A stretch of DNA of 64,000 nt from Caldilineaceae bacterium (GTDB lineage Bacteria > Chloroflexota > Anaerolineae > Caldilineales > Caldilineaceae), in assembly GCA_022823185.1 (NCBI GenBank), contig JAJDXQ010000030.1, forward strand, positions 1 through 64,000, in the 5' to 3' direction. The notes beneath the pieces are model-generated. The model did not search any database, was not told the origin of the DNA, and saw nothing but the letters and a program-made list of their open reading frames with translations. This document shows positions 1-4,920 of this stretch, one piece after another (position 1 is the first letter of the stretch; every line of letters starts with the position of its first letter). A program made the position numbers and the translations under genes.

Positions 1-153
1 GGACTCTCAATCGTATCAAATCGTCTCTATTCCGTCATCTTACCCATTTTTCAACCCAATTTAGATGCGATTGCCCTGGCTTAACTCCACCACCCCCTTA
101 ACGTCCTGCCCAAATCATGGTATAATTCCATGTACAAATGAGGAGAAAACCCC

Positions 154-342
154 ATGCCAGACAACAAGAGCGAACGACCTAAGAGACCTCGCGGCCGCCC
201 TCGCACACACCCGATGCCCGACGCCATCCCTGACACGCCAGTAAACGTCGCCCGCATCCTAATGACGACTAAACCTAAGAGGGAAGGAGAATGGCAATAC
301 CTCAAGGACGCTCCCCCCACTAGCCCTTACAAACGGCGATAG
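154..342 (+). CDS. small basic protein with AT-hook-like PRGRP core
   Basis: 62 aa ORF with SD-like 'gaggag' just upstream of ATG; N-terminus RPKRPRGRPRTHP contains the canonical AT-hook core PRGRP. Confidence 0.55.
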   Translation: MPDNKSERPKRPRGRPRTHPMPDAIPDTPVNVARILMTTKPKREGEWQYLKDAPPTSPYKRR

Positions 343-708
343 TGGCTCGCCAGTAAAGAAGGTTTGTTCGCATTGAAGTAGGATTCCCGCTGTTGATGCC
401 GCCGTTGCGAATATTCCACTCCCAGTAAGCCATGACCCAAAATACAAATACTCAATCAAACAACGCCACGGCGTTGGTCGCCATGCTCGCTCTCAAGGGA
501 GCCGTTGTGATTCTCTATTTCATCGTCACCTCTCCCAGTCCTTCGTATGTTCCGTGAACAGCGGGCCAAATTCATAAACAATGGCCAGGCCTTTGGAATT
601 CCTCTGACACTACCCCTCTCGTTCCACACATCTTGACACCTTGTTGATACTGCGCTAGATTTGGCATCCTATACAAGTTTGATCTTTCTATGAAAAAGAA
701 GCGTTGCC

Positions 709-2046
709 ATGATTTCAATTCTTTCAAAACCCAAAGAGCAAGTCGGAATTGACGACTTATGCGAACTTATCCAGATGAGAATCCCCGAAGGAGAGCAAAT
801 CGAGTACAAGAGGGAACTCCCCTTCAAAGATGACGGCGAAACCGATAACTGGTTATCAAACGGTAAGCTTGGAAACAGAGCGAAAGACAGCTTGATTAAG
901 GAAGTTATTGCACTAATAAACACTAGTGGTGGGGTCATCATTTTAGGTATAGGTCAGTCCGCCGATAAACCTCCAGTCGCCCAAAAAATTCAGCCGATTC
1001 CCCGATGTGCCGAATTAGCAGATGCTCTTACCTATCTGTTCCTAACCAGGATTGAACCTCAAATACCTCCCTTCGAAATCGTTCCCATAAAAACAGAAGA
1101 AGAAAATGGCGTAGTGGCAGTTCGTGTGAGAAAGTCTCAGAAAGCTCCACATCGGGATACCAAGACTCGCGAAAGCTACGTCAGGCGACATGATCAATGC
1201 AGAAAAATGTCTATGCGAGATATTCAAGACATGACAATGAATTCGGCGCGGGGACTTGAAGGACTTGAAAAACGATTCGAAAAACGAACGGATTTGTTCC
1301 AGAACGAACTTAAGTACCTCATCAACCCAGACGATGCATTTGGAATTCGTCTAACTGCAATACCACATGGGAGTGACGTTTGGTTCAATCGTGTCTATGA
1401 CAACTCTCGAATTCTTCCTCAGCTTGAATTCCGTCATCAGCAAGTGTTTGAGCACACCACTGATGGAAGAAAGGAGAAACTCAGAACCATCTTCGATAAC
1501 TGTGGATTCAATTGGAGGCCGGCTGTAAGAGCTGCTCGCGGCGATTCAGACACCACAGTTTTCGAGAGCAGACATGGACACGCTTCCCTTGCTACCAGGT
1601 TTAACTTCTATGTAGAGATTCACTGCGACGGCATGGTTGAACTGGGGTTAGTTGCGCATCATATGCACAGAGGAGATTGGAATTACTATGTGTCACCTGA
1701 CTTACCGGCTGTTCTCTTTGCCAACCTAGTCGCCCAAGTTCACCAAATGAGAATGATGGCAGGCACTCCTATGGCTGATTATGTCGTGGATGTTGCCATA
1801 CTGGTAAGAAAGTTTCCTAGATTGATGAACTCCGCAGGACCACAATTTGGTTTTCCAGTAGGAAAACTCGACCCTGGTTTTCATACGTTTCCTCGGTATG
1901 TATTGAATCATTCTGATGATTTTCTGGAAACACTAAACCTTTTCCATCGCGATTTCTACAATTCGCTCGGCCAAGACTACAATCGACAGCAATTTTCTCT
2001 AGTAATTGAGAACTGGCCATACAAGAGTTCGGTTCAACAAGAGTGA
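709..2046 (+). CDS. AlbA_2/Schlafen-type ATP-binding domain protein
   Basis: 445 aa; N-terminal E-x-x-x-x-EYKRELPF ... KEVIALINTSGGVIILGIG ... SYVRRHDQCRKMS pattern typical of AlbA_2 domains. Confidence 0.8.
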   Translation: MISILSKPKEQVGIDDLCELIQMRIPEGEQIEYKRELPFKDDGETDNWLSNGKLGNRAKDSLIKEVIALINTSGGVIILGIGQSADKPPVAQKIQPIPRCAELADALTYLFLTRIEPQIPPFEIVPIKTEEENGVVAVRVRKSQKAPHRDTKTRESYVRRHDQCRKMSMRDIQDMTMNSARGLEGLEKRFEKRTDLFQNELKYLINPDDAFGIRLTAIPHGSDVWFNRVYDNSRILPQLEFRHQQVFEHTTDGRKEKLRTIFDNCGFNWRPAVRAARGDSDTTVFESRHGHASLATRFNFYVEIHCDGMVELGLVAHHMHRGDWNYYVSPDLPAVLFANLVAQVHQMRMMAGTPMADYVVDVAILVRKFPRLMNSAGPQFGFPVGKLDPGFHTFPRYVLNHSDDFLETLNLFHRDFYNSLGQDYNRQQFSLVIENWPYKSSVQQE

Positions 2047-2050
2047 TTCT

Positions 2051-2518
2051 GTGCTAGAGAAAATAAACACTTATGGCTTCATCCTAATCGCCTGTATAAT
2101 CTTCTTTTTTCTAACGACCTCTATGCCTAAATGGGGTGTTGAACACACTCTTAGTGTCTTGTTGCAAGTACTCTATTGGGCAGGAAGTTCTTATCTCGCA
2201 TATCGCAAAGGAGAATCGGATGCCATAAGAGACATCCGGCGACAAGCAAGGGATAGATACAGGCGTCTAAGTACGTTACTCAAAATGATGATCGAGCTGG
2301 CTGAAGAAATGAAAGAGAAAGAATCAAACTTTTCACACGGAAGTCTTTACAATTCCAGCGATGATTTGCAAGAGAACCGAATGTTTCTCAAGGAAATTTA
2401 CAGGTTAATCTATTCTTGGGTGATGAATTTGAAAGACTGCCTCGCCTTTTGGGAGGATCTTGCTCCATCAGAAGTAGAAGAATTGCACAAGAACCTGTTC
2501 GGAAGGGACAAAGAATGA
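2051..2518 (+). CDS. hypothetical membrane protein (N-terminal TM segments plus charged/helical cytoplasmic part)
   Basis: ORF track begins at 2006; GTG at 2051, just after the stop of the upstream gene, is a likelier start. Two hydrophobic stretches (FILIACIIFFFLTT, LSVLLQVLYWAGSSYLAY). Confidence 0.6.
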   Translation: MLEKINTYGFILIACIIFFFLTTSMPKWGVEHTLSVLLQVLYWAGSSYLAYRKGESDAIRDIRRQARDRYRRLSTLLKMMIELAEEMKEKESNFSHGSLYNSSDDLQENRMFLKEIYRLIYSWVMNLKDCLAFWEDLAPSEVEELHKNLFGRDKE

Positions 2519-2904
2519 GAGAACTGATCTGCTGCCAAGTTGTAAGAGTGCTTTCAAATAGAGATCTGGTTATCAGCGCAGGCTCTTCACAAGGTGTAGA
2601 GGAAGGGATGCTATTTGACATTAGAGGCTACGTGGACATCGAAGACCCCGATACGGAAGAAATCCTTGAATCTCTACTAGTCACAAAGGTAAGGGTAAGA
2701 ATCTCGCAGGTGGGGAAGAAAGTGTCGGTTGCCAGCACATTTAGACAGACTCAGCCTAGTTTAGCAACAGCTTGGCTAAGCAGTGGATTTGTAGGGCAAG
2801 TGGAGACAATCAAATCTGACGACATTTCCAGAAATGATATTTGGGAAAAGGTCATCAGCATTGGAGATGAAGCAGTCCAGGTCACACAAGGAATACAGAC
2901 CTAG
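2515..2904 (+). CDS. hypothetical small beta-rich protein (FlgT-C-like 'SAGSSQGVEEGMLFDI' motif)
   Basis: ATG at 2515 overlaps the stop of the upstream gene (ATGA); 'DLVISAGSSQGVEEGMLFDIRG' motif. Confidence 0.6.
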   Translation: MRELICCQVVRVLSNRDLVISAGSSQGVEEGMLFDIRGYVDIEDPDTEEILESLLVTKVRVRISQVGKKVSVASTFRQTQPSLATAWLSSGFVGQVETIKSDDISRNDIWEKVISIGDEAVQVTQGIQT

Positions 2905-2969
2905 ACAACCTTTTTGCTACCCTTGATTCTCTGGATTGGATTGTCGGACTTTGCTTAGAGGGAAGATAG

Positions 2970-3194
2970 ATGTGGGATTCTTACATGGAATTCAGAATTC
3001 ACAAAAACAAGACGGTGGTAATAAGAAGACGGGTGTTATGGCTAATACTAATTTTCCTGTTGATGCTTGCTGCGACAACAACCGAAAGAGGAGACCTTAA
3101 GACACAGATTACCGATTCCTTGTCGAGTGCTGCCGGATATATGCATAGACAAGTCCTATCACCCCAACAATCGTCACACTGCCCAAGAAAGTGA
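2970..3194 (+). CDS. possible small single-TM protein
   Basis: 74 aa ORF with one strong TM segment (VLWLILIFLLMLAATTT); overlaps the 3' end of the opposite-strand gene. Confidence 0.3.
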   Translation: MWDSYMEFRIHKNKTVVIRRRVLWLILIFLLMLAATTTERGDLKTQITDSLSSAAGYMHRQVLSPQQSSHCPRK

Positions 3195-3483
3195 GCAACC
3201 CCTGCAACTGTTCTTCGGTTAGCCATCTCAGCCATATAGGCAGCATATAGTGCCAACTCAAAACGCCCATCGCTAAAGGAATAACAATTCTAGCAGCGAA
3301 GAGAATTACGTGGGCACTTTCAGATAGAGATTGCTTTAATTCATCCTCACGAATGCGGTCCCAGTGGTCAAGTTCAACTTTTTCATCCTGAATAGACTGT
3401 TTTACTCTTTCACGCAGGAAATCTTCAATGGATCGAGGCCGGAGGGGAGGCTGAGAACGTGGTTCATCATCTTCTTGGGCCAT
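3109..3483 (-). CDS. small two-TM protein, candidate toxin of a Panacea toxin-antitoxin pair
   Basis: ATG at 3483 lies 2 nt after the Panacea stop codon (3488-3486); two TM segments (VILFAARIVIPLAMGVLSW, GLLTFLGSVTIVGVIGLVYAYI) after a charged N-terminus. Confidence 0.65.
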   Translation of the reverse strand: MAQEDDEPRSQPPLRPRSIEDFLRERVKQSIQDEKVELDHWDRIREDELKQSLSESAHVILFAARIVIPLAMGVLSWHYMLPIWLRWLTEEQLQGLLTFLGSVTIVGVIGLVYAYIRQHSTRNR

Positions 3484-3485
3484 AT

Positions 3486-3956
3486 TCAATCCCTATTTGA
3501 CCTAAAATACTCCTCAAGAAGCTTGTTGGGTATGTGCTCACCCAGCTTATTGTTCTCCCGCATTTCATAGTAAGGGTTTTCAGATAGATACGTCTGTGCC
3601 ATCAAGTCAACAGGATCCAATTCGCCGTATGATTTATAGACCGCTTCAATTATTCTCCTTTCTTCCTGATCAAATTCCTCATTTGCAACAAACAATTTTT
3701 GTTCAATCGGATTGGATCCATAGTGAATCAATTCGTTTCGGATATCACGAATAACGGGGCCGTATCTTCCGACCTCAATCGGTTGTCGGAATAATGGTCT
3801 TCCATTGATTCCCAACATGTACCCATGACAAAAATACAACAGCCTGAGGAGATCTGGTTGATTTATTTTCTTCCCATCTTTGAGAATTAAATCCAATAGA
3901 TAATTCGCAACAGCCCTAGCGTCGTGATCAGGCCCATCGCTCTTTTGTTTATCCAT
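3486..3956 (-). CDS. Panacea (DUF4065, SocA-like) domain protein, candidate antitoxin
   Basis: ORF track start at 4322 is too long; ATG at 3956 (MDKQKSDG). LLRLLYFCHGYMLGINGRPLFRQPIEVGRYGPVIRDIRNELIHYG is a classic DUF4065 block. Confidence 0.85.
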   Translation of the reverse strand: MDKQKSDGPDHDARAVANYLLDLILKDGKKINQPDLLRLLYFCHGYMLGINGRPLFRQPIEVGRYGPVIRDIRNELIHYGSNPIEQKLFVANEEFDQEERRIIEAVYKSYGELDPVDLMAQTYLSENPYYEMRENNKLGEHIPNKLLEEYFRSNRD

Positions 3957-4251
3957 TTGTGCATTGGGTGGTGGGGTGACTACATCAATATTCCGAGTCA
4001 GGTATTTCGTTACTAGCCGCCAGCCTACTACAATCAGACTGCTTTGACAAGTCGAGGAAATCTTTGACCGACTGCTGGACGATATCTTTCTTGCCCGCTC
4101 CAATCTCTCTGACATACACAGATTAGGATTCGTTAAGTATAATGGTCGCTGAAAAACGGAGAGAACGGAAACTTCAGACTGAGTCATACACGCCCCCGCA
4201 CTTTTGCACAGCTTGTCACACATTAGCACTATTCTCTGAGTTTGGCCTTGT

Positions 4252-4920
4252 CTACTTTGGTATATAATTCCCAAAATTAAAGGTGCAGGTGCGGCGGTCT
4301 TTATAGCCGCCAAAAGCAGCATGCCAGGTCAACTGGTTGAAGATAATGACATCACCCGGATTTGAACTGAATACATAGCAGGGAATATCTTCACCGCTCA
4401 GGCCAGATTCTTCTAAGAACCGGGCCTTTTTGGGGCCAAACGTACTGCGCAATCCCATGCCATGAAGTTCTTCATGCAATGGATTTTTGTGCGACCCGGG
4501 AATGACACGCAATGCGCCGCGGTCAGCGGTTGTCGGTTGCAGATACATGACGTTCTTGATTGCCACTAGATGAAGATCGCTCCAATCCGGATGCCAATCG
4601 GTACTGTTCTCATAGCTGTTGGCGTTAGAATGGACGGGAACGGAATCTTCATCTATCAACTGTTCCGCGGGCAGATAAATGCGCGGGTCCTCAAGCAAGC
4701 TGGCAATAAAGGGGGTTTCTGGGGTCCGGTTACTCCAGTTGTTGAAAATACGTTTCTCTTCGGGATCGGTTTCCTTCAGAATGGATGCAAGGCGACGATC
4801 GAACTCTTCGTTTATCTTGTTCATCTCCTCGGGACTAAACAGATTTCTCCGGACCAGGAACCCGAAAACTTCAAATAGCCGGATCTGCTCTTCGGTAAGG
4901 CGATAGTCTTCCTGCGTCAT
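4252..4920 (-). CDS. phytanoyl-CoA dioxygenase family protein
   Basis: DWHPDWSDLH ... RGALRVIPGSHKNPLHEE ... GDVIIFNQLTWHAA: Fe(II)/2OG H-x-D ... H pattern of PhyH. Confidence 0.85.
   Translation of the reverse strand: MTQEDYRLTEEQIRLFEVFGFLVRRNLFSPEEMNKINEEFDRRLASILKETDPEEKRIFNNWSNRTPETPFIASLLEDPRIYLPAEQLIDEDSVPVHSNANSYENSTDWHPDWSDLHLVAIKNVMYLQPTTADRGALRVIPGSHKNPLHEELHGMGLRSTFGPKKARFLEESGLSGEDIPCYVFSSNPGDVIIFNQLTWHAAFGGYKDRRTCTFNFGNYIPK

Follow-up and report, generated by a model that had tools for sequence, protein, structure and literature searches.

A Panacea gene paired with a small predicted membrane protein at the start of a Caldilineaceae contig: a probable PanAT toxin-antitoxin module

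Kurata et al. named the Panacea domain and validated nine PanAT toxin-antitoxin pairs (PMC8832971). Three of the toxins, validated in 2022, are membrane proteins. They come from E. coli, Bartonella apis, and Helicobacter, and the report describes them as halting transcription, translation, and replication together. It gives strong depolarisation and raised permeability for the E. coli and Bartonella toxins. It also gives a common layout for the validated membrane clusters T3 and T12, with a charged N-terminus and a C-terminal transmembrane region (PMC8832971). A standalone Panacea neutralises the Bartonella membrane toxin directly, and the substitutions Y56A and H120E abolish neutralisation (PMC10440598).

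We compared with these systems a gene pair from a Caldilineaceae bacterium. The pair lies near the start of the window, by which we mean the whole stretch of 64,000 nucleotides that was analysed. It contained the following features.

3486 to 3956, minus strand: panA, a standalone Panacea gene (SocA_Panacea, formerly DUF4065) of 156 aa, predicted antitoxin.
3109 to 3483, minus strand: panT, predicted toxin, 124 aa, with a charged N-terminal part ahead of a two-helix membrane hairpin.
3217 to 3255, minus strand: the inter-helix loop of panT, residues 77-89, WHYMLPIWLRWLT, from the alignments.
3490 to 3494, minus strand: AGGGA, a Shine-Dalgarno-like sequence within the end of panA, read from the sequence.

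The panA gene starts with an ATG at 3956 and ends with a TGA at 3488-3486. The ATG of panT is at 3483, 2 nt past this stop codon, and an alternative start, the TTG at 3489, shares bases with the stop. The AGGGA is 6 nt from the ATG, which makes the ATG at 3483 the better start. The initial annotation had claimed a Panacea (DUF4065) gene, a 2-nt spacing or an overlapping TTG, and a partner of about 125 aa with two transmembrane helices, and it gave no strand. Each of these was recovered. The Panacea gene matches Pfam PF13274 (SocA_Panacea) with 47.6 bits against a gathering cut-off of 25.7 (E=3.6e-12), both start codons are present, and the 124-aa partner contains two hydrophobic stretches (best 19-residue Kyte-Doolittle means 2.09 and 2.15, starting at residues 57 and 96). 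The two genes share the minus strand. Upstream of panA the pattern scan did not exceed chance and gave no promoter or operator. A small open reading frame at 2970-3194 on the plus strand overlaps the 3' end of panT by 86 nt on the opposite strand. This overlap is probably chance or a convergent end.

The panA gene is the sole Panacea copy in the genome. It also matches phrog_1281 in PHROGs (E=2.2e-28), and its structure model had a best E of 2.7 against the PDB. It has QTYLSENPYY in place of the LTH..GTPW stretch common to most relatives, with Tyr where most relatives carry the His of the LTH motif. It also has EVGRYGPV where relatives have EAWRYGPV, with Gly for Trp. These residues suggest that its toxin interface may differ, and they give a way to probe how Panacea fits different toxins. 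As a lead only, the conserved LTH His may correspond to H120 of the Bartonella antitoxin.

The panT protein has a strongly charged N-terminal region (charged fraction 0.46 over about residues 1-56). Its AF2 model, built from seven sequences, contained a helix at 19-80, a break, and a helix at 90-122. The pLDDT was about 80 over the hairpin and 66.8 overall, with a pTM of 0.36, so only the hairpin layout of the model is usable. The model contained the N-terminal helix region and the hairpin and no further domain. The charged N-terminus followed by a C-terminal hydrophobic region is the layout of the T3- and T12-like membrane PanT, and it is kept across the panT family. Helix 2 has moderate hydrophobicity only in most relatives (0.94-1.47), and it may therefore lie along the membrane. 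In 11 aligned sequences, conservation across the family peaks in the loop pattern WHxxxP...WLT/S. H78 and P82 are invariant, and W77 and W87 are nearly invariant. From the charge pattern, with the charged N-terminal region and the positively charged C-terminus inside, this loop is predicted to lie at the outer face of the membrane.

The partner had not been recognised as a named toxin family, and the libraries agree. No match to panT was retrieved from Pfam, NCBIfam, PADLOC, PHROGs, or the sequences of the PDB. The few weak library matches of panT or its relatives were all below every cut-off. The best match of the hairpin among viral structures had an E of 7.8.

Relatives of panT were retrieved from the window's phylum, Pseudomonas, Bacteroidota, phages, and viral contigs. 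A search with panT alone across 399 genomes of the same phylum recovered two full-length relatives, with 32% identity in one genome (G294) and 27% in another (G157). Both start within the stop codon of Panacea (ATGA overlap). Searches of phage records based on Panacea recovered relatives in about fourteen Pseudomonas aeruginosa phages and in Halomonas phage H4907. Scans based on the partner recovered relatives in three Pseudomonas genomes, one further genome of the class of Pseudomonas, two viral contigs, and one Flavihumibacter assembly; another genome from the same phylum as Flavihumibacter contained two copies. The pattern scans used a subset of three panT sequences, the five-sequence alignment being too diverse. 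A tblastn search of phages and plasmids with the window panT gave no match, and viral contigs scanned with a Panacea profile gave none either. Weak partner-profile matches in longer proteins (E 1e-4 to 0.1; about 0.003 to 0.007) were discarded: the majority extend over a single helix or a portion of the protein, and the ones examined are without Panacea.

The annotation of one Pseudomonas phage (MK510977) misses the Panacea gene at 1504-1977 on the plus strand. In its place it calls a short reverse-strand open reading frame at 1732-1929, and it lists the downstream panT as hypothetical.

The initial annotation had proposed a survey of gene neighbourhoods and had named partner homologs without a Panacea neighbour as evidence against a pair. 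All 13 intact panT copies with readable upstream DNA have a Panacea gene directly upstream on the same strand. The gene order is the same at all 13 loci, with gaps of -29 to +9 nt, of which -29 and -20 rest on uncertain start codons. Ten of these loci (G294, G157, L046, L092, L093, L094, L095, L096, L102, and L103) were found without Panacea as bait, some of them with profiles that include phage relatives; they amount to fewer than ten independent events, given the close relatedness of L096 and the three Pseudomonas copies. A further copy (L104) lies at a contig edge and is outside the 13 counted. The sole relative without a Panacea gene nearby (L031; contig C108 of G294, 1513-1800, minus strand) is truncated and ends just before helix 2. 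This is as expected if the toxin survives without its antitoxin only when broken, though the case is a single one, from a fragmented assembly.

The tree distances of panA and panT are correlated (Mantel r=0.66, 13 loci, with 0 of 5000 permutations as high). The correlation was r=0.41 (p=0.016, 9 loci) with near-duplicates removed. Panacea is rare in the window's phylum, with 44 genes in 36 of 399 genomes, so the probability of chance adjacency is negligible. The panT gene of the Pseudomonas relatives is under purifying selection (dN/dS 0.04-0.24). This selection, and the same arrangement kept by distant panT relatives in other phyla, argue that the pair is not a chance one.

Among the 44 Panacea genes surveyed, the panT family is downstream in three, namely the window, G157, and G294. 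A distant and weaker match to panT follows Panacea at one more locus (L052), with E=1.7e-6 for the first profile and 3.6e-4 for the wider one. The other Panacea partners in the phylum are different membrane proteins (for example at L049, L055, L063, and L079) and several soluble kinds. This diversity is the partner swapping described for Panacea.

One soluble Panacea partner of about 138 aa was seen outside the phylum, in E. coli and Pseudomonas phages and an E. coli plasmid (L105, 1284-1706; L045, 1931-2350; L041, 1921-2334). Its start region has F-S-F, and it ends in W-x-D-R-(E/D)-F. Partners that follow Panacea at two loci of the window's phylum (L064 and L066) resemble it by eye.

We consider it probable that the pair is a PanAT toxin-antitoxin module, with toxicity and neutralisation taken by analogy from the studied PanAT systems. 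The upstream panA would encode a standalone Panacea antitoxin of the type II kind. The downstream panT, which appears to be translationally coupled to panA, would encode a small membrane protein with a cytoplasmic charged N-terminal region and a two-helix hairpin. The hairpin of free panT would insert into the inner membrane, the membrane potential would collapse, and growth would stop. Panacea would bind the cytoplasmic N-terminal region and the helix that precedes the membrane segment and so keep panT harmless. The module may serve in abortive defence against phage, or in its own maintenance, on accessory foreign DNA. Membrane depolarisation is the most likely action of panT, by analogy with the tested toxins. 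A phage-defence role we infer more weakly. The related pairs in temperate phages and the foreign DNA at this locus were counted for the module. Ten candidate systems of one bioinformatic survey that were without toxicity in E. coli count against it (PMC10440598).

The initial annotation had offered a candidate membrane-acting toxin-antitoxin pair whose toxin might be new. The pairing and the architecture bear out the candidate pair. The novelty is limited to a sequence family at most, because Panacea neutralising small membrane toxins is already established (PMC8832971, PMC10440598).

The module may also act without a leak of its own, with panT directed at a membrane-bound target such as division or respiration proteins. 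We regard this as fairly unlikely. It has a precedent in the PanA-paired toxFtsL of D9, which has FtsL-like features and blocks division without rapid growth arrest (PMC10440598), and the conserved loop motif of panT could be a recognition site. The model of panT contained no extra domain for such a role, and the small-hairpin PanT toxins tested to date depolarise the membrane (PMC8832971).

The DNA around the pair has a different origin from the rest of the window. It contained the following features.

1 to 4273, no strand: a foreign stretch with panA and panT and an SLFN_AlbA_2 gene cluster, delimited by G+C and absence from congeners.
4273 to 4274, no strand: the right-hand end of the foreign stretch, within the 3' part of phyH, placed by the homology breakpoint.

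The G+C content is 44.9% in the first 4273 bases and 60.4% in the rest of the window. All other window segments of the same length have a G+C of 0.53-0.64, and the first segment is outside this range. Its tetranucleotide profile is equally distinct. A search of 16 congeners retrieved neither the pair nor panT. Nine congener loci are homologous to the window, and in each the homology sets in at window position 4273 or 4274. The window phyH (phytanoyl-CoA dioxygenase family; 4252-4920, minus strand) has its 3' end truncated by the foreign stretch. It ends in NFGNYIPK, whereas the congeners run on with NFYGTPRTPEAVESMRKVVEHIPE... and have a longer C-terminus at all nine loci. The left end of the stretch is beyond view, as the contig starts there. 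We read the first 4273 bases as foreign DNA that was inserted or replaced the native sequence; the alternative is an assembly chimera.

Such a chimera would have joined 4.3 kb of another organism to this contig, and the pair would not belong to the genome of the window. The stretch is at the contig start with an abrupt change in G+C, and the displaced phyH flank of the congeners was not found elsewhere in the assembly. Accessory islands look alike in this respect, and the neighbouring SLFN_AlbA_2 gene has a relative with 52% identity in one congener (L113), a point in favour of an accessory island that circulates within the genus. We consider the chimera improbable, and the biology of the pair would be unchanged by it.

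The SLFN_AlbA_2 gene is at 709-2046 on the plus strand (E=2.2e-14). Small open reading frames that overlap or are closely spaced follow it on the same strand (2006-2518, 2416-2904, and the frame at 2970-3194), and one of them contains a strong hydrophobic stretch. The cluster is convergent with the pair. It had no match of note in PADLOC and is possibly a second accessory or defence cassette.

It is distinctly improbable that panT is non-toxic and serves as a membrane anchor or receptor for Panacea, with Panacea as a membrane sensor or regulator. Panacea has been proposed as a sensor (PMC10440598), and a binding function would also fit the position of the most conserved panT residues in the inter-helix loop. 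Against this, standalone Panacea elsewhere pairs with unrelated toxins, including validated membrane toxins (PMC8832971), and the diverse Panacea partners in the phylum fit neutralisation better than a fixed anchor. A SocAB-like type VI system, with Panacea as an adaptor for the proteolysis of a replication toxin, has very little chance of being right. In its favour, panA scores 70.2 bits on the NCBIfam SocA model (NF047745). This is far under the curated equivalog cut-off of 190, on which SocAB identity was rejected, and the partner of panA is a membrane hairpin without a family match.

With the pair read as a PanAT module, Panacea-neutralised membrane toxins were known already, and the addition is a family without a match in the libraries searched. 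We tentatively suggest that the panT family, marked by the WHxxxP...WLT/S loop, is one of undescribed Panacea-neutralised membrane toxins in at least three bacterial phyla and temperate phages, and that its loop may do damage by a mechanism distinct from known PanT. Among the validated membrane toxins, the sequence comparison covered E. coli PanT, and the family may yet belong to the Bartonella cluster T12/D11 or to one of the other predicted PanT clusters. The relatives, which include short Pseudomonas proteins, one of them of 119 aa, are a set suited to tests in E. coli. The presence of relatives in temperate phages of Pseudomonas aeruginosa and Halomonas makes the family a candidate for prophage-encoded exclusion. 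The general picture of Panacea systems is unchanged.

The described systems differ in how closely they resemble the pair. The type VI SocAB of Caulobacter crescentus has the antitoxin domain family in common with the window panA. The pair differs from it in missing the SocA equivalog cut-off and in having a membrane hairpin as the partner. The Helicobacter PanAT contains a membrane PanT with C-terminal transmembrane helices, as predicted for the window panT (PMC8832971). The N-terminal part of this toxin is described there as coiled-coil-like, and the likeness is one of architecture. The Panacea partner in H. cinaedi prophages (L108) is a different protein from the window panT. Panacea partners that are membrane hairpins were also seen in Paracoccus phage Psul1 (L038, 1952-2437) and on a Shewanella plasmid (L042, 1983-2381). 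Pairwise BLASTP finds the plasmid protein similar to E. coli PanT (E=4e-7), and the phage protein resembles this toxin by eye only.

The PanAT of Bartonella choladocola (formerly B. apis) belongs to T12/D11. Its Panacea contacts the disordered N-terminus of the toxin and the helix that precedes the membrane segment, as given in PMC10440598 and PMC8832971. The window pair is predicted to have the same architecture.

The E. coli PanAT (PanA WP_000287252.1, cluster T3) has, like the window, the standalone Panacea first and the small membrane protein second (PMC8832971). It is prophage-borne, with PanA and PanT annotated in phage PhiR47_1. Its PanT, of 182 aa, carries a long extension at the N-terminus and lacks the WHxxxP...WLT loop, and the window panT has 124 aa. 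No BLASTP similarity was found between the window panT and WP_000019186.1, and the hhalign probability was 0.4%; the toxin compared comes with the same PanA accession and is a neighbouring record of the validated one, WP_000019185.1, to which it may not be identical. The window panT appears by its sequence to be outside cluster T3 and to be built like the membrane PanAT pairs.
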